64,000 nt of DNA, from assembly GCF_006539685.1 (NCBI RefSeq), contig NZ_BJNM01000002.1, positions 1 through 64,000 on the forward strand. Direction: 5' to 3'. Every line of letters begins with the position of its first letter. Position 1 is the first letter of the stretch. This stretch comes from Gluconobacter oxydans. Its GTDB lineage: Bacteria; Pseudomonadota; Alphaproteobacteria; Acetobacterales; Acetobacteraceae. The notes beneath the pieces were generated by a model, which ran no database searches, was not told the origin of the DNA, and was given only the letters and a program-made list of their open reading frames with translations. The position numbers and the translations under genes were made by a program. This document shows positions 6,956-15,814 of this stretch, piece by piece.

Positions 6956-7627
6956 TTACTGCGCAGACGTGCTGGTCGTGCTTCTGGACAGACGCCCCGT
7001 TGCGGAAGCCGGGAAGCCATCGACACCCGTCCGGTCGGTGGCGGCATTGCCGTTGTCATCCGGCATGCGGTCCGTGTTCAGATAGCGCGGCAGTTCATCC
7101 GGCGCGGCTTTCTCGGGCATGTTGTGATTGCGGAACCAGATCGCGATCTGCTGCGTCATGGTCTGCGCCAGCGTGTCCGAGACGCGCGCCTGAAGCGTTT
7201 CATCATTCAGCGTCTGGGCGAAATACTGCTCGAACGTGGTGTTGAAACCGTCCAGCGTCGTCGCATCCCCCTGCGCCAGCAGGCGCGGATTCTGCTCGAC
7301 CGTGATGAGCATCCAGTGTGCCGACCCCGTGCTCCGGGTGCGGCCGGACGTATTGTCCTGATGGATGTCGACCGCTTCCTCATTCATGCCGGAAGAGACT
7401 TTCAGCATGTATTTATGAGGATCTTCCGGCCCGGCGCCAGCCAGGTTTTTCTGCAGGGCCAGACGGAGTTCCTGGCCATAACGCCCCGGAATGTTGTCCA
7501 CATAAATCTGTGCCAACTCTTCCGACATGTCGGTTTTCGGGGTCAGCTTTCCATAGAGGGGGGAAAAACCACACCCCCCCAGCATAAGGAAAGCCGTGAG
7601 CAGAAAGGCGCCGCGCCGGTCAGACAT
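6956..7627 (-). CDS. lptE: LPS-assembly lipoprotein LptE
   Basis: Outer-membrane lipoprotein that plugs the LptD barrel in lipopolysaccharide export. The 223-residue precursor has a short basic start, a hydrophobic stretch and a lipobox L-G-G-C with the lipidated Cys at 19, followed by GFSPLYG, a motif shared by alphaproteobacterial LptE proteins. The C-terminal 50 residues (Thr/Ser/Ala-rich after the helix QIAIWFRNHN) look unstructured. It starts at the leuS stop and ends at the holA start, so the three are co-translated. LptD is not in the window. Confidence 0.85.
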   Translation of the reverse strand: MSDRRGAFLLTAFLMLGGCGFSPLYGKLTPKTDMSEELAQIYVDNIPGRYGQELRLALQKNLAGAGPEDPHKYMLKVSSGMNEEAVDIHQDNTSGRTRSTGSAHWMLITVEQNPRLLAQGDATTLDGFNTTFEQYFAQTLNDETLQARVSDTLAQTMTQQIAIWFRNHNMPEKAAPDELPRYLNTDRMPDDNGNAATDRTGVDGFPASATGRLSRSTTSTSAQ

Positions 7628-10224
7628 CAGCCCGCCACCACGAAATTGACGATCCGGTTCGGAACATGGATTTCCTTCACCAGCCGTTTCCCTTCAAGCA
7701 GACGGGCCACGTTCGGCTCGCTCTTCGCTGCGGCCAGCACCTCTTCCTTCGGCGCATTGGGCGGAACCTCGATGGTTCCGCGCAGCTTGCCAAGGATCTG
7801 CACACCGATCGTCACACTCTGCACGGCCAGCCATTTTTCTTCGGCTTCCGGCCAGGGACGCTCCACAACCAGCGCACTGCCCGGTTCCAGAACCGCCATC
7901 ATGTCTTCCGCAAGATGGGGCATCATCGGAGCCGTCAGCAGACACAGCACGCGGGCCGCCTCACGGCGCGCAGCGGCAATGCCGGCGCCTTCGATGCGTT
8001 CGGCATCCGCCAGAGCCGAGGTCAGCTCATGCAGACGGGCCACGGCAACATTCGGCGTGAAAGCTTCAAGAGCTTCACCGACGGCGGCAATGGTCCGGTG
8101 CGTGACACGACGCAGGTCATCCCCCGTCGCACCATGCGCACTGTCGGCGGCATCCCGTGCGGCTACGGAAGCTACGAGACGATGCAGTCTCTGGCCAAAG
8201 CGGGCAGCAGCGGCAACGCCTGCGGCCGTCCATTCCATGTCCCGCTCCGGCGGGCTGTCGGACAGCACGAACCAGCGGGCCGTATCCGCGCCATAACGCT
8301 CGATGATGTCGACCGGAGACACCGTGTTGCGCTTGGACTTGGACATCTTTTCCGAGCGGCCGACCTGAACCGGCGTTCCCGTCTCACGGCGCACGACCTG
8401 ATCGCCCTGCCGCTCGACCTCTTCGGGATACAGCCAGCCGCTATCGTCGCGGTAGCTCTCATGCGTCACCATGCCCTGGGTGAAGAGGCCGGCAAACGGC
8501 TCGTCCACATCCAGATGCCCGGTTTCATGCATCGCGCGGGTGAAGAAACGCGCATAGAGCAGATGCAGGATCGCATGCTCGATGCCGCCGATATACTGGT
8601 CCACCGGCAGCCAGCCATTCGCTGCCGCCGGAACCGTCGGGGTTTCGGCATGCGGGCTGGTGAAGCGGGCGAAATACCAGGAACTGTCAACGAACGTGTC
8701 GAATGTATCGGTCTCACGAACCGCAGGCTTGCCGCAATGCGGGCAGTTGACGTGCTTCCAGGTCGGATGGTGATCGAGCGGATTACCGGGACGATCAAAT
8801 GTCACGTCTTCCGGCAGGATAACGGGCAACTGCTCATCCGGCACCGGAACCGGGCCGCAGGTGTCGCAATGGATGATGGGAATGGGGCAGCCCCAGTAGC
8901 GCTGGCGCGAAATGCCCCAGTCGCGCAGGCGCCAGTTCACGACGCCCTTGCCAGCCCCCAGCCCTTCAAGGCGCTCAATGACTTTCGTCCGCGCCGCAGC
9001 AGGATCCAGCCCATCCAGGAAACCCGAATTGAACAGGGTCGCATCCCCCGAAACGGCCTTCTTGCCCAGGACAAAGGTCTCGGCATCCTGCCCCGGAGGC
9101 AGCAGCACCTGCGGAACCGGCAGGTCGTACTTACGGGCAAAGTCGAGATCGCGCTGATCGCCGCACGGGCAGCCGAAAACAGCGCCGGTGCCATAGTCCA
9201 TCAGAACGAAATTGGCGATCCACACAGGCGCCGTCTTTTCGGGATCAAGCGGATTGGCCACCCGCAGACCCGTGTCGAACCCGCGCTTTTCGGCAGCTTC
9301 GATCACTTCCTCGGACGTCCCGAGACGGCGACATTCCTCAATGAAGGCAGCGGCCTGCGGGTTGCTTTCCGCAACCTTGCGGGCCAGCGGATGCTCCGCC
9401 GAAATCCCGATGAAGCTCAGGCCGAACAGGGTATCGGGACGCGTCGTGAAGACTTCGACGCTGTCGAGATCCTCGTCATAGCCTGCGGGCGGCTGATGCA
9501 GCGCAAAGCGGACCCGGGCCCCTTCCGAACGGCCGATCCAGCGCTCCTGCATCGTCCGGACGCGTTCGGGCCAGCGATCAAGCGTCTTCAGATCATCGAG
9601 CAGAGGCTGAGCAAATTTCGTGATTTTCAGGAACCACTGGGAGAGTTTCTTCTTCTCGATCAGGGCTCCCGAGCGCCAGCCGCGCCCGTCCACGACCTGC
9701 TCGTTTGCAAGAACCGTCTCGTCGACCGGATCCCAGTTGACCAGAGAATCACGCCGCTCAACCAGACCGGCGCCCAGCATATCGGTGAACAGCTTCTGCT
9801 GCTTGCCGTAATATTCCGGCAGACAGGTTGCGATCTCACGGTCCCAGTCCAGCGAGAAGCCCAGACGCTGCAGCGTGCCCCGCATGGTGGCAATGTTGTC
9901 CATCGTCCACTTGCCAGGATGGACATTGCGCTCACGCGCGGCATTTTCCGCCGGCAGACCGAACGCGTCCCACCCCATGGGGTGCATGACCGCGAAACCC
10001 CGGGCCCGCTTGTAGCGCGCGACCACATCCCCGAGCGTGTAATTTCGTACATGCCCGACATGAAGCTGCCCCGACGGGTACGGGAACATCTCCAGCACAT
10101 AGTATTTCGGACGATCGGCCGGGGGAACATCCGGCACCGCAAAGGTATTCCTCCGCTTCCATTCGTTCTGCCAGAATGGTTCGCGGTCCTGGAAATCGAA
10201 TGCGGGGGCTGTGGTATCGCTCAT
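7627..10224 (-). CDS. leuS: Leucyl-tRNA synthetase
   Basis: Class I aminoacyl-tRNA synthetase charging tRNA-Leu in the cytosol. With the start at 10224 ([11 protein letters not shown]) it has 865 residues, normal for bacterial LeuRS. Visible landmarks: the HIGH-type motif HVGH at 55-58 within [15 protein letters not shown], the CP1 editing domain in the middle third, cysteine pairs CDTC and CPHC of the zinc module region, and KMSKS at about residue 626. An upstream in-frame ATG at 10260 would add 12 residues but lies inside the DUF3576 gene; the start at 10224 falls just after that gene's stop at 10232. It is second in the leftward operon ending in lptE and holA. Confidence 0.96.
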
Positions 10225-10231
10225 GTCTGAC

Positions 10232-10750
10232 TCAGTTGTCCCGCTCGCCGTTTTCGGCACGCAGCTGACGTGCGCGCGTCAGGATACGGGTGGTGATATC
10301 GGAAGTGGTGGTGGCGGAAACAGGGGTATCTTCCCACTGGCCGTCCTGCAGAACCTGCCGGAATACGGAGACCCGAAGGGCGTCAGAACGCAGGCGACGA
10401 TCCAGCACATAAGCCGCAATCTTGAACCGCTCGTTCTGGCTGGCAGACGGCTGATACCAGTCGGTCAGGATAACACCGCCCACGGCATCGGCAGACGCCA
10501 GCGGCATGAAGGACAGGGTGTCGATCGCTCCACGCCACAGATAAGCGTTCACACCGCCGCGAAGCTCGTCCGCGCCACCCTCGGCACCGCGATCAACACC
10601 AAGAAGATGATTGCGGGGTGCGGTCAGGGTGCTGGGGTCACGTCCACCACCACAGGCGGCAAGAGCGCCGAGCGCCAGAAACCCCAGGGCAAGACGGGTT
10701 GTCGGTCGGTGAAAAGGGCGAAGAACGGTCGACTGGATGCGAGACATCAT
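10232..10750 (-). CDS. DUF3576 family lipoprotein
   Basis: A 172-residue envelope protein with an N-terminal signal segment and lipobox L-A-A-C (Cys 33) followed by GGG. The mature part matches the layout of the alphaproteobacterial DUF3576 family: [27 protein letters not shown], then ILTDWYQP and a helix carrying ARQLR. Function is unknown. The gene lies immediately upstream of leuS in the same direction, an association common in alphaproteobacteria, and the operon also contains the outer-membrane lipoprotein LptE, so a role in the outer envelope is plausible but unproven. A second ATG at 10747 is an equally possible start. Confidence 0.8.
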
Positions 10751-10885: not shown

Positions 10886-13009
10886 TTATCCTTCAGGCAC
10901 GCCGGCCTTGCCCAGCGCTTCAGCCAGCCTCGTCAGTCGTGTCTTTCCCGTACAAGGAAACCGGCTGACAGCTCTGGAAATGGTCAGATCCGGGACCAGA
11001 CGAAGGAGGTGGCGACAGACCTGATTCATCTCTTCGGCGCAGTCACCCACTTCAACCAGGGCAATGAGATAATAAACCAGCGAACTCGGGCAGGACGGAT
11101 AAAGGCCGGACATCAACCGACCCATCGAGATTACTTCCTGATAGTCTTCCCCCAGGAGCAGGACCATCATGAAAACCGGGCGCAGCAGTTCAAGCAACTG
11201 TGAGCGATACCCGTTTTTCAGCAGCAGCTTCACCTTTCCTGCTGCTACCTTCATCTTCCCGCCCAGCAGGGCTAGGACAATCTCTGCCATCAGAAGATCA
11301 GGAGAATCCTTGTGATGTCCTTCGATCCGCAAGATTCCCTCAGCCGCGGACTGGACAACCGAAAGAGCCGTACTGTGCATGGCAGGCTCGTGCATCAGAT
11401 ACGCGGCGAGAAGAACTTCGACTGCATGCAGATCCGGCATCAGCGAAATGGCGGTTCGAACGCTGCGAAGACCTCGGGCGAAAACAGCCTCGGTTTCAGG
11501 GCTCCATTCATTCAGGAAGCGGATATAGCAGTGCAGGGCATCAATGAGCGCAATTGCACCGTCGTCCCCGTCCTGTTCGCTGGCGCGTTCCAGCAGAGAT
11601 CCAATTCGGCCGAAAAGCGAAGAATCATGTCGCAGGAGCAGCATGAAAGCCCGCAGCGCCATTCCGAGTGCTGAAAGTTCTGAATCCGGTCGGGCTGCAA
11701 TGCGCCGGGCTTCGGTGACGAAGATGCTCCACTTCATCGCCTGGGCAGGCGCCAGAAGGCTGTTTTTTGCCGTATCCGGACCGGAGCGTGGGAAATCGTA
11801 ATGCGTCCCCCAAATGATGACTCCCCCGCGCCGGGCGTCCAGCACCCGGAGGATCAGCCGGTTTTCAGCCCCCTCAGGGCCTGCCCGCAGATTGCCGGAA
11901 ATGATGTAATCCATGCCCCAGGCCCGGTAGGCCGCAGCCGCACCTACAGGGTCGGGCAGGGAGGCTTCGGGGAGTGCAAGAATGTCGAAAGTTCCCATGT
12001 TGACGAACATGAGTTCCAGTTGATCCCGCAGGCGCTGGCCCTGTTCGGCAAGCGTTTTATCCGTGGACGACGGGATCAGAAAAACCAGTGAGATCTTCCG
12101 CGGTTCTGCCGCAGCCGGATGTTGCGACGCGTAATGAAGCGGCAGGGCAAGCATCGGATCCGGGCGCGGTACTGGCGCTGTGAAAGACGCTTCAGGAGTT
12201 CCCGCAGCCAGTGCAGTCTGGGACAAGTCCTGAACCAGATCCTTGCCGCTGCTTTCAGTCGGAATACTCCTGATCAGTGCCTGTGTGGCCGGAGTAAGGA
12301 TATGTCCTTCGGCGTCTCCGAAAAGATGTGTCATCTGGTCAGCAAGTGCGGCTGCCCGACCCTTGTCACCACGATGCAGGGCCATCTGAACCCTGGCCCG
12401 CCAGGCAACCTCGTTCAGGCTGTCAAACTTCAACAGACGCTCGGCCACGTCTTCGACCTGGTCCGGGTCGGTCAATTCCCGGACGGCACTTTCATAAACC
12501 TGCTGGAGATGTGTTGAGAGGCGCTCCCTCTGCTGGCCAAGCCATTCGTCCAGCGCCGGATCCACACCTGCCAGCTCGCCGAGCAGCGGTTCGTCAGGTA
12601 GGGTCACACTGTCGATCGTCCGCACACTGACTGTAAGCAGCCTCTCGGCGTCCACCGAAGTAAGGGCTGGCTTCAGGGCCAGCGAGTGCCGCTGAACATC
12701 GATGACGTCCACGCCCAGCGGACTGAGCGCATCCAGAAGGCGGTGGATTTCCTGCCGCAGGGATGCGCGTGCCATTTCTTCAGGCCGCTGGCTCCACAGC
12801 AGTTCCGCAAGCCGCGATCGCAGGACAGGTTTCCGGTCAGAAAGAGCCAGAATAGCCAGAAGGGCCCGTGTCTTGCCCCCCACAGGAAGCACGCTTTCGC
12901 CCGTGAGGGTTCTTGCTTCCATCTGCCCGATCAGTCGCACGCGCAAAAGGGTGGGATCGGTCTCGCGGATAGGACGGGATGAACTGTCCATCATCTTCGC
13001 CGCCTCCAC
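10886..13009 (-). CDS. SARP/BTAD-type transcriptional regulator with TolB-like and repeat domains
   Basis: A 707-residue cytosolic regulator candidate. Residues about 20-115 form an OmpR-like winged helix (RVRLIGQMEARTL, then KTRALLAILALSDRKPVLRSRLAELLW); about 120-250 is a bacterial transcriptional activation domain of helical repeats; about 300-410 resembles the TolB-like domain of adenylate-cyclase and CadC-type regulators (SLVFLIPSS, IISGNLR, IIWGTHYD). The C-terminal 300 residues are helical, possibly TPR-like. There is no receiver domain. Genes of this build are found beside envelope or secretion functions in alphaproteobacteria, but no target is evident: upstream lies a 448-bp gene-free stretch and the intron-split tRNA. 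Start codon choice (13009 or a Met six residues later) is open. Confidence 0.75.
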   Translation of the reverse strand: MEAAKMMDSSSRPIRETDPTLLRVRLIGQMEARTLTGESVLPVGGKTRALLAILALSDRKPVLRSRLAELLWSQRPEEMARASLRQEIHRLLDALSPLGVDVIDVQRHSLALKPALTSVDAERLLTVSVRTIDSVTLPDEPLLGELAGVDPALDEWLGQQRERLSTHLQQVYESAVRELTDPDQVEDVAERLLKFDSLNEVAWRARVQMALHRGDKGRAAALADQMTHLFGDAEGHILTPATQALIRSIPTESSGKDLVQDLSQTALAAGTPEASFTAPVPRPDPMLALPLHYASQHPAAAEPRKISLVFLIPSSTDKTLAEQGQRLRDQLELMFVNMGTFDILALPEASLPDPVGAAAAYRAWGMDYIISGNLRAGPEGAENRLILRVLDARRGGVIIWGTHYDFPRSGPDTAKNSLLAPAQAMKWSIFVTEARRIAARPDSELSALGMALRAFMLLLRHDSSLFGRIGSLLERASEQDGDDGAIALIDALHCYIRFLNEWSPETEAVFARGLRSVRTAISLMPDLHAVEVLLAAYLMHEPAMHSTALSVVQSAAEGILRIEGHHKDSPDLLMAEIVLALLGGKMKVAAGKVKLLLKNGYRSQLLELLRPVFMMVLLLGEDYQEVISMGRLMSGLYPSCPSSLVYYLIALVEVGDCAEEMNQVCRHLLRLVPDLTISRAVSRFPCTGKTRLTRLAEALGKAGVPEG

Positions 13010-13457
13010 GATCAGGATCCCTTGCCGAAAGGCACGGAAATTCCAGACTGTTTCAGTAAATCGTTGTCAGCAACGCAGATCATGGCAATTCTCAACCCAG
13101 TCAAACCTGCAAAACCCCCACAAAGAGGTATTGTGTAGGATGCCAGCTGCGAACGCGCTCTATCCTACTCAGGATTTGGTACTACCAGAAAAACAGATCA
13201 CCTTTTTGATGGAAAAGAGGTGTCATGCAAGGCCGTAGCAGAAGCCTCACTTAAAAGACTAACCAGAAAAAGTTGAGATAGCATAAACAGGACAGGTAAT
13301 CTTCATCCCCGATGATATGCCCGTCGAGGGTTCCCGTTTCCCTGGTTTTTCCCGGGTGGTGCTGGCTTGGATGGGGAATTCCCGATGTCTTCCGCTGCTT
13401 GATGTGGTGAGAGTACGGTTGCAGCGGCACCGTAACTGAGATACGGTCAGTTTGTTT
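13010..13457. other. Gene-free stretch before the split tRNA
   Basis: About 450 bp without a supported gene. It should contain the promoter of the leftward regulator and that of the rightward tRNA. A 7-bp inverted repeat (GTAGGAT at 13135-13141, ATCCTAC at 13172-13178) is visible. A leftward open frame covering much of it (13251-13784) is a reading of the antisense tRNA and intron and is not accepted as a gene. Confidence 0.5.
13419..13447 (+). promoter_or_regulatory. Candidate promoter of tRNA-Arg(CCU)
   Basis: TTGCAG at 13419-13424, a 17-bp spacer and TACGGT at 13442-13447. The expected transcript start would leave only a few leader nucleotides before the mature tRNA 5' end at 13458. The -10 is a poor match, so this is a modest candidate. 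Confidence 0.35.
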
Positions 13458-13763
13458 GTCCGCGTAGCTCAGCAGGATAGAGCACAGGATTCCTAAGGTT
13501 TTGAATTGGGCGCCATGATGGGAAACCGCATGGTGGATTCGCTCAAATTCGGGGAACGCTCTGATCATCTCGATCGTGCCAATCCCGAGCCAAGCTTTCC
13601 GGCGTGCCGGCAAGAAGGTGTAGAGACTGTACGGGCGACACCTTGGCTTTCTGGCCATGGTGAAGAGACAGTCCAGACCACGAACGTGCCTCCGGGCATG
13701 GCGGTGAAAACCGAAGTGGTATGAATCCTGGGGCCGGAGGTTCGAATCCTCTCGCGGACACCA
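13458..13763 (+). tRNA. tRNA-Arg(CCU), split by a group I intron
   Basis: The 5' exon (13458-13494) and 3' exon (13724-13763) join into a 77-nt cloverleaf: acceptor GTCCGCG paired with CGCGGAC, D stem GCTC/GAGC, anticodon stem CAGGA/TCCTG around loop TTCCTAA, variable loop GGGCC, T stem GGAGG/CCTCT with TTCGAAT, discriminator A and encoded CCA at 13761-13763. The anticodon is CCT at 13492-13494, read as CCU for the rare AGG arginine codon. The gene is interrupted exactly after anticodon position 36. This is the same tRNA and loop in which the Agrobacterium tumefaciens intron was described. No functional AGG decoder can be made from this copy without splicing. Confidence 0.95.
13495..13723 (+). 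other. Group I self-splicing intron (Azoarcus/Agrobacterium tRNA-intron type)
   Basis: A 229-nt intervening sequence without an ORF. P1: exon CCT (13492-13494) pairs with GGG at 13508-13510, placing U-G at the 5' splice site, and intron AA (13495-13496) extends the helix with TT (13506-13507). Core blocks shared with the Azoarcus tRNA-Ile intron: GGGAAACC at 13520-13527, CAAATTCGG at 13544-13552, GAGCCAAGC at 13587-13595, GAAGGTGTAGAGACT from 13614, and GACAGTCCAG from 13667. P7 can form between ACTGT (13626-13630) and ACAGT (13668-13672). The last intron base is G (13723), the omega-G expected of group I introns. This fits subgroup IC3 (inference). No homing endonuclease is encoded. Confidence 0.93.
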
Positions 13764-14017
13764 ACAAACACGACATTCACCCAAAGAATCATATTGTTCT
13801 CTGATCGATGAGGGTTAGGGCTGGCTACCTGTATAGATGTCGCATGAGCAGAGAGCAGTACTGTCAGGCTGTTTTATAAATCTTCTGTTTATTCCTAAGC
13901 GTATTGCTCTTTATAGGGCGGCCAAAAAGTCAGCGTTTGAGATCTTGGCGAGAGCTTGGCGTTTTTGGATATTTCAGATTTCCAGGCGCTAGGCGCAGCA
14001 TGATGGGAGTGAGAAGT

Positions 14018-15814
14018 ATGCAGAGTTTACTGAGTGTCCTTTTCATTGGATCGCTCACTGCTGCCTCGGCCATGGCTCGGCCAATGCCACCATGGAAGTC
14101 TGATGCAGGGGGGGAGATCTCAGCCGGCACTGATGCAAATGAGTCCTTGGCCGGCTACGGCAGTCCGGTCCGGTTTACCGTATTTTTAGGAGCCGCTACC
14201 GGTTTTCCGCAGTTGGCAAACGATGTTCAGGAAAGTCTGAGTAGGGGAAACATTACCCTCTATGAACATGGTGTCTCGGTTAATCCCGCATATATCACTT
14301 CGGCCCAGCGTGAAGCTCTTCAAAATGTATGGGGTTCAACGGGGATAAGACTTACCACCGGTGGTGGCACGGGAATGGCAGAAATAGGTTGCTGCAGTCT
14401 TTTGTCTTTTTCTGATCTGAAAAATTTCGGTGGTTCTTTGCCCCTGCTTGCAAACGCCAATCTCCCCGATGATGAAGGTGGAGATGGAACGGTGATGACA
14501 GAGGCAAGCGAAGCTGATCTTGAACTTAAACTTGCAGCCATAGTGGCTCAGAAAGGCGCGCCCAAGAATATCGCGCCCATCATGCGTCCCGATCCAGCGC
14601 AGCCGACAAAACTCTGGGAGGCTAGCGCTCTATATGCTCCGAACCGGAAGTTGGCTCTGTATACAGGCGCAGTTGCCATCGACATACCTCCCACGCTGGC
14701 CATGAGTTTTCCAGGCGCAGCATTGGATAATTATGTCAATGAGATCAAATGGGCACTCAGAAACAGAATTCGTGTAACCCTGATCGTATCGCCTTACGTA
14801 ATGGGGAAGGGGGGATGCGTATTTGATTCCAGGTTTCTAGAAAATACTAAGGCTTTCACAACATATCTGATCTCCAAAGGGGCGGATCCAACGGAATATG
14901 TAGTTGAGTCTTACTGTGGGGAGGTTAGGAATACAGTTAACTCTCCGTCGGGAGATCATGAGTCTGAAAGCATCAACCAAGTTGCCCTGTTCCTGTCTAC
15001 GATGCCTGTTTCTGCGCCGGGAACCACTGTTCCGGCAATGCCAGGAGGATTATCAGAAGTAGATGCGATTGCATCGCAAATGTCAGATTCGAAGTTGCAT
15101 GTTGCAAAAGTTGCGGATCAGACGTTTTTTTCTTCTGATAAAAACGTAAATTCTATTATCCGCAGAATGAATTCATTAGATGGTATGGCATATCAGTCAG
15201 ATGTAAAGGTTTCTATTCATGGAGGTGCACTCGATGGCACGGTAAATCCACTGGATATTACGATTTGTCCGAACTGTTCCATGCTGATGCAAAACGCTCT
15301 TGTATTCCAGGCCACACATGGAAATGGGGTCCTGCAGGGGTCAAAGACGGACGCGATGATCCATGTGTTTAACCCTACAACGCCCGCTCCCTCGGGATTC
15401 ACCTTTGGAAATATGAGTGATGTCCGTGCTCCTCAGGTGTTTCGGGAAACAGGACAGGGCATGAGCAATGTGGAAGGTCTCATGATCAGGGGAGCTGATG
15501 AAATGGTTCTGGGTCTGTGGGGTAAGAATGGCTTCGCAAATCTGGGAATATCTGATGATGGGCTTCTGGAAATTCGTAACCCCGGAAGTAGCGCAGATTA
15601 CCATACAGGCGTTGAATTTGCCCCACCTGGTGCAGATTTGGCCAATCGACCGAAAATTACTGCCTCCAACGAGGGGAATACGCTCGAAATCACTTCCAAG
15701 AACACGATTTTTAAAGGAAATACCACTTACAGCTCATTGAGCGGAAATGGTAATGCTTATGCCTGCCTGGATGCTTCAGGAAATCTTTATCGCAGTATGA
15801 CGGCTTGCCGATAA
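14018..15814 (+). CDS. Secreted protein of unknown function, AT-richer than its neighbours
   Basis: A 598-residue protein with a clear Sec signal (MQSLLSVLFIGSLTAASAMA, likely cleavage after about residue 20). The start at 14018 is chosen because GGGAG lies 7 nt upstream; earlier in-frame ATGs at 14000 and 13904 add residues without signal character. I do not recognise a family. The first 350 residues have alternating strand and helix character with several Cys, and the C-terminal part (GLMIRGADEMVLGLWGKNG, then ITSKNTIFKG and YACLDASGNLYRSMTACR) reads like a beta-rich phage-fibre or surface-protein tail with a terminal Cys pair. Codon use is visibly more AT-rich than in flanking genes, and it sits directly after a tRNA, which suggests horizontal acquisition (inference). 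Confidence 0.7.
   Translation: MQSLLSVLFIGSLTAASAMARPMPPWKSDAGGEISAGTDANESLAGYGSPVRFTVFLGAATGFPQLANDVQESLSRGNITLYEHGVSVNPAYITSAQREALQNVWGSTGIRLTTGGGTGMAEIGCCSLLSFSDLKNFGGSLPLLANANLPDDEGGDGTVMTEASEADLELKLAAIVAQKGAPKNIAPIMRPDPAQPTKLWEASALYAPNRKLALYTGAVAIDIPPTLAMSFPGAALDNYVNEIKWALRNRIRVTLIVSPYVMGKGGCVFDSRFLENTKAFTTYLISKGADPTEYVVESYCGEVRNTVNSPSGDHESESINQVALFLSTMPVSAPGTTVPAMPGGLSEVDAIASQMSDSKLHVAKVADQTFFSSDKNVNSIIRRMNSLDGMAYQSDVKVSIHGGALDGTVNPLDITICPNCSMLMQNALVFQATHGNGVLQGSKTDAMIHVFNPTTPAPSGFTFGNMSDVRAPQVFRETGQGMSNVEGLMIRGADEMVLGLWGKNGFANLGISDDGLLEIRNPGSSADYHTGVEFAPPGADLANRPKITASNEGNTLEITSKNTIFKGNTTYSSLSGNGNAYACLDASGNLYRSMTACR

Follow-up and report, generated by a model that had tools for sequence, protein, structure and literature searches.

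The window, a 64,000-nt stretch of Gluconobacter DNA, contains on its forward strand (13458-13763) a tRNA-Arg(CCU) gene that direct reading of the sequence resolves into two exons around a 229-nt intron. The intron (13495-13723) is placed directly after U36, and its excision leaves a 77-nt cloverleaf with the joined anticodon loop UUCCUAA. The parts of the gene, the exons supported by sequence reading and by ARAGORN run with its intron option, are as follows:

13458-13494, forward strand: 5' exon of tRNA-Arg(CCU), 37 nt, with anticodon CCU at its end
13495-13723, forward strand: group I intron, 229 nt (sequence, Rfam, ARAGORN, covariation)
13724-13763, forward strand: 3' exon of tRNA-Arg(CCU), 40 nt, with CCA at its end

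The 5' exon terminates in TTCCT, and alignment shows the longer GATTCCT to be invariant across 64 relatives. Run without its intron option, ARAGORN reports zero tRNAs in the whole 64-kb window; with the option, on the stretch holding the gene (L001), it recovers tRNA-Arg(cct) and places an intron of that length, 229 nt, behind gene base 37, so that the removal of exactly 229 nt behind the anticodon, as given in the initial annotation, is correct to the base. At this length the intron is too short to leave room for a homing endonuclease gene. The Rfam group I model RF00028 matches 13493-13696 (model positions 1-253) at 52.5 bits and E 1.8e-10, a score above background but barely over the curated cut-off of 50 bits; this is the sole Rfam match in the window at gathering thresholds, and RF00028 finds the same one match only, at E 10 or better, in the 2.7-Mb genome.

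Upstream, the LeuS protein (7627-10260) is 97-99% identical to the LeuS of Gluconobacter vitians, G. roseus and G. potus. The long open reading frames flanking the tRNA (10886-13009, reverse strand, 707 aa; 13904-15814, forward strand, 636 aa) have no Pfam match at E 0.001, and a scan of 13150-13950 for promoter-like sites, which has little power here, returned none. A 177-aa reading frame (13251-13784, reverse strand) runs antiparallel to the split tRNA, where automatic annotation could call a protein; a Pfam search with it gave zero matches, and we rejected a protein gene on that strand in favour of what is probably a chance reading frame.

Copy number of the CCU tRNA and use of AGG

RF00005 finds 41 tRNA genes over its cut-off in the genome, and ARAGORN reads 39 anticodon kinds from these loci, the arginine anticodons ACG, CCG and UCU among them and a second CCU not. 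A search of the genome with the joined exons likewise returned, besides the gene's own halves, only other tRNAs (72-80% identity) and matches 14-17 nt long. The second intact copy that would have marked this one as a relic was looked for in these searches and not found, and the sole tRNA-Arg(CCU) found requires splicing. Because the assembly consists of 107 contigs, and its tRNA list is without some expected genes such as Ile(GAU) and Ala(UGC), a little room is left for a second CCU gene inside an assembly gap.

In 133 mechanically chosen open reading frames from 244 kb, AGG accounts for 240 of 65296 codons (3.7 per thousand, 4.5% of arginine codons), and 88 of the 133 hold at least one. An intact tRNA-Arg(UCU) is present in the genome. 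Since this tRNA may read AGG by wobble, AGG reading need not hinge wholly on splicing; the initial claim that AGG decoding depends on it agrees with the single CCU gene but is overstated.

Intron fold and predicted splicing

Sixty-four distinct tRNA-Arg(CCU) introns were aligned by sequence alone and an RNAalifold consensus was taken, its outer false pairs being swapped for P1, P7 and P10 before counting. The helices counted (P1, P2, P3, P4, P5, P6, P6a, P7 as a pseudoknot, P8, P9, P9a, P9b and P10) comprise 67 pairs, in which 96.7% of 4266 cells are paired across the 64 introns. The principal elements, in window coordinates, are:

13505-13507, forward strand: guide-segment AUU, pairing in P10 with AAU of the 3' exon (13724-13726); 97.4% of cells paired
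13508-13510, forward strand: internal guide GGG, P1 partner of CCU, with U.G at the 5' splice site; 64 of 64 sequences
13511-13535, forward strand: P2 hairpin, closed by a GAAA loop; both sides changed in 5 of 6 outer pairs
13539-13544, forward strand: P3 5' strand, partner 13633-13638; 100% paired, 3 pairs with double changes
13549-13554, forward strand: P4 5' strand, partner 13583-13588; invariant
13625-13629, forward strand: P7 5' strand GACUG, partner 13669-13673; 100% paired, one double change
13639-13642, forward strand: P8 5' strand, partner 13659-13662; 3 of 4 pairs with double changes
13677-13720, forward strand: P9 (13677-13681 with 13716-13720) around P9a and P9b, with GAAA loop at 13706-13709; structure count
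13723, forward strand: final G of the intron, at the 3' splice site; invariant across the alignment (G237 in its aligned row)

Both partners have changed in 38 of the 67 pairs, and 609 cells are compensatory against a shuffle mean of 182, with 0 of 500 shuffles reaching the observed value on any of five measures. Sliding the partners by 1-3 columns gives 29-42% pairing, a control that favours a structure mostly derived, as here, from the consensus of the same alignment. P1, P3, P4, P6, P7 and P8 are paired in 100% of sequences, with double changes in P3, P7 and P8; P1, P4 and P6 are invariant, and covariation speaks neither for nor against these three helices. The single double change of P7 within the CCU introns (GC to UA) occurs in locus L210. 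Between host tRNAs the last pairs of P7 covary by eye: ACTG/CAGT in Arg(CCU), ACTA/TAGT in Leu(UAA) and Thr(GGU), ACTT/AAGT in two Lys(UUU) introns and Leu(CAA), and ACCA/TGGT in Arg(UCU). The unspliced precursor is predicted to fold at -121.5 kcal/mol (z -2.32; 1 of 100 shuffles at least as low), with the acceptor, D and T arms preserved.

All 64 aligned sequences have a P1 with U.G at the 5' splice site (here C34 C35 U36 with G13508-G13510) and guanosine as the last intron base, and the P3-P8 and P4-P6 domains are present with the P7 guanosine site as a pseudoknot. The compact group I intron proposed in the initial annotation, including its pairing of the anticodon with an internal GGG, its terminal G and its P7 strands, is thus borne out by Rfam, ARAGORN and covariation. 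P3, P4, P7 and P8 are all present, but one of its listed core blocks, GGGAAACC, belongs instead to the closing part of the P2 hairpin, which carries the GAAA loop. The same Rfam match and full fold, with its P7 pseudoknot, argue against a protein-spliced or unrelated insertion, and protein-spliced introns are not known from bacterial tRNAs; such an insertion is practically inconceivable here.

The GAAA loops of P2 and P9 presumably recall those of the Azoarcus intron, and the present intron may belong to subgroup IC3, RF00028 being one general group I model. Both are small group I introns in a pre-tRNA; the host tRNAs differ and the two are likened by description. The Azoarcus pre-tRNA-Ile intron is named as group IC3 in a general review (PMC3984707). 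A closer counterpart is BbgpI, the tRNA-Arg(CCU) intron of Bartonella bacilliformis, which splices in vitro and in vivo (PMC7717549) and shares the host tRNA, an unannotated tRNA gene and flanking CCT repeats (here TTCCT before and AATCCT after). Splicing is demonstrated for Bartonella, whereas the Gluconobacter intron is known from its sequence and is likened to the account in PMC7717549 by description.

By analogy with the group I family and with this splicing counterpart, the pre-tRNA would fold so as to pair anticodon CCU with guide GGG in P1; an exogenous guanosine held in P7 would attack after U36; the freed U36 would then attack after G13723, with P10 (AAU/AUU) positioning the 3' exon for exon joining; and ligation would release the 77-nt tRNA. 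The presence, position and fold of the intron and its single-copy state are established here, and on each point tested it behaves as a standard member of the published family. Almost certainly the sole tRNA-Arg(CCU) gene found in the genome is interrupted after U36 by a compact group I intron that would be spliced as proposed.

A decayed relic, in which the intron no longer splices and tRNA-Arg(UCU) reads AGG, would suit the intact tRNA-Arg(UCU) and the rarity of AGG. Against this, 88 of the 133 reading frames hold AGG; the complete split gene turns up by BLAST in every one of the 25 genomes searched in the genus, the window's own included; and P1, P3, P4 and P7 pair in every one of the 64 sequences with compensatory changes elsewhere, where a relic would decay. 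With fold and exons both conserved we rejected decay, which is extremely unlikely.

Distribution and descent in Acetobacteraceae

A 1999 paper by Paquin, Heinfling and Shub, cited in PMC7717549, concerns by its title tRNA-Arg(CCU) introns of alpha-purple bacteria and their sporadic distribution; the host tRNA and class are the same as here, and acetic acid bacteria may be among those it covers. PMC4033280 names cyanobacteria and a few alpha- and beta-proteobacteria. The initial framing of an acetic acid bacterial case as novel does not stand, since five such bacteria (Gluconobacter oxydans 621H, Asaia bogorensis, Acetobacter pasteurianus, Komagataeibacter and Gluconacetobacter diazotrophicus) are marked in footnote c of Table 1 of a 2015 paper (PMC4596401) as having one tRNA (Arg) split by a group I-homologous sequence; Granulibacter is not so marked in that table. 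The window, from another Gluconobacter, matches that case in having an arginine tRNA split by group I-like sequence in the same genus, while the published record is one footnote giving no anticodon, structure or survey. The finding is already known and adds one more species to the published case.

The split gene lies within the fetched stretch of 17 of 80 leuS loci, the remainder of which may carry it elsewhere in the genome. The linked carriers are Gluconobacter, Komagataeibacter, Novacetimonas, Gluconacetobacter, Acetobacter, Swaminathania, Saccharibacter, Bombella and one uncultured family member. Of the footnoted taxa, Komagataeibacter and Gluconacetobacter diazotrophicus are found here with the CCU intron beside leuS. 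Distances in the intron and leuS trees have a rank correlation of 0.846 (0 of 2000 permutations as high) among the 18 acetic acid bacteria with both on one stretch, 9 of 15 inner branches being weak; this agreement fits vertical descent in acetic acid bacteria.

Across 249 genomes of the family, RF00028 has matches in 68 at E 0.001, 15 of them above the cut-off. A custom model built from 36 cores, some taken from the same surveyed genomes, matches in 116 of the 249; in a draw of 385 genomes from the class it matches in 50, of which 5 belong to the same family. A weak second match of G169 was left out of the family survey, and six of 61 rows (G397, G439 twice, G504 twice and the second row of G479) out of the class survey. 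With matches fetched and read, the CCU intron is present in 97 of 249 family genomes, plus 5 genomes of other families at the same insertion site. An intact gene, scored where the joined tRNA matches over its full length at E 1e-16, occurs in 121 of the 249; all 30 loci fetched from these genomes read tRNA-Arg(cct), the anticodon having been read for those 30, and an exact pattern that requires CCT between paired arms is present in 112 of the 249. No genome was seen to hold split and intact forms together, and both states occur inside 7 of the 44 genera with split genes. In 31 family genomes neither form was found, possible causes being incomplete assemblies, diverged genes or further introns.

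From these data we infer mostly vertical descent in acetic acid bacteria and repeated gain or loss over the wider family. Vertical-looking retention and the single-copy state would also allow the intron to be kept as a control point, its splicing adjusting how much tRNA-Arg(CCU) is available in response, for instance, to GTP or growth state. A neutral guest fits better with the 7 of 44 genera that hold intact-gene genomes beside split ones, and we regard a regulatory role as very unlikely.

Related introns in other tRNA genes

From 184 loci of the class we retained 172 distinct ones for host labelling, after removing 6 duplicates and 6 without a split tRNA (L136, L307, L320, L322, L323, L325); 18 labels, 17 of them within the 172, were assigned by eye, and 4 loci were left without a firm label. 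Labels within the family are Arg(CCU) 97, Leu(UAA) 16, Thr(GGU) 6, Leu-like without assigned anticodon 3, Lys(UUU) 2, Arg(UCU) 2, Asn(GUU) 1 and Leu(CAA) 1; those in other families are Leu(UAA) 18, Lys(UUU) 7, Arg(CCU) 5, Thr(GGU) 5, Lys(CUU) 3, Leu(CAA) 3, Thr(CGU) 2 and one without an assigned host. The Asn label is one locus, and Arg(UCU) and Thr(CGU) are two loci each. Examples in Asn, Leu(CAA), Leu(UAA), Lys, Thr and Arg(UCU) genes include L120, L132, L133, L150, L151, L160, L164, L183, L188, L241, L317, L318 and others. Each of 16 genomes has two such split genes, one of them in G024 and G112 being Leu-like without an assigned anticodon. In the split Leu-like genes L179, L294 (genus g25) and L182 the joined anticodon loop looks irregular by eye (U33 missing, or a length other than 7 nt), and these appear to be decayed or unusual tRNAs.

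One such gene lies in the window's own genus: L209:2549-2836 in genome G256 is a tRNA-Lys(UUU) with a 212-nt group I intron, whose joined exons by eye equal the intact tRNA-Lys(UUU) of the window's genome. We found no intact tRNA-Lys(UUU) in G256. Its locus is broken, the old left flank and an uninterrupted 5' half lying on another contig (L357:1014-1052), which places a rearrangement point within the tRNA-Lys(UUU) anticodon arm. An integrative element was considered and rejected in favour of rearrangement; each side holds genes that appear, on reading by eye, to be ordinary chromosomal ones.

On a quick tree of 171 introns (L120 left out), in which long branches meet and 75 of 166 inner branches are open, the ten labels need 16 changes, against a minimum possible of 9 and a shuffled mean of 64.9; the 102 CCU introns of the class account for 4 label changes on the quick tree. 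The sequences beside P2 read as guides that suggest a fit to each host. This fit is suggestive only, because a guide-swap control (an unanchored three-pair test; 3 loci dropped as their tail was not found) discriminates poorly, wrong hosts passing for 99% of the 102 CCU introns with Lys tails and for 79% of 34 Leu(UAA) introns with CCU, and because the class script that labelled the loci itself rewarded a fitting guide.

We think it likely that the Gluconobacter intron represents a single lineage within a large family of small introns, mostly unannotated, that occupy anticodon loops in this class and have eight further hosts, Leu(UAA), Leu(CAA), Thr(GGU), Thr(CGU), Lys(UUU), Lys(CUU), Arg(UCU) and Asn(GUU), and with seemingly host-fitting guides. 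Jumps between tRNAs would be rare and countable, because host sites largely keep their own lineage (16 changes among 171 introns) while gain and loss at a site are frequent. Among the papers listed by a literature search, judged by title and abstract opening, none dealt with group I introns splitting Lys, Thr, Asn, Arg(UCU) or Leu(CAA) tRNAs in the class; the coverage leaves out most subscription journals and is no proof of absence. The related introns in genes of eight other isoacceptors are perhaps the newer part of these results.

For annotation, ARAGORN at its default settings overlooks the sole tRNA-Arg(CCU) found here, and the Rfam group I cut-off is passed in 15 of 249 family genomes versus 116 with the custom model, partly built from the same genomes. 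For evolution, the family offers a clean system for counting intron gain and loss, because split (97) and intact (121) genes were not seen together in the 249 genomes and both states are found within 7 genera. Of more interest than the known case itself is how far such introns, mostly unannotated, extend to other tRNA genes.
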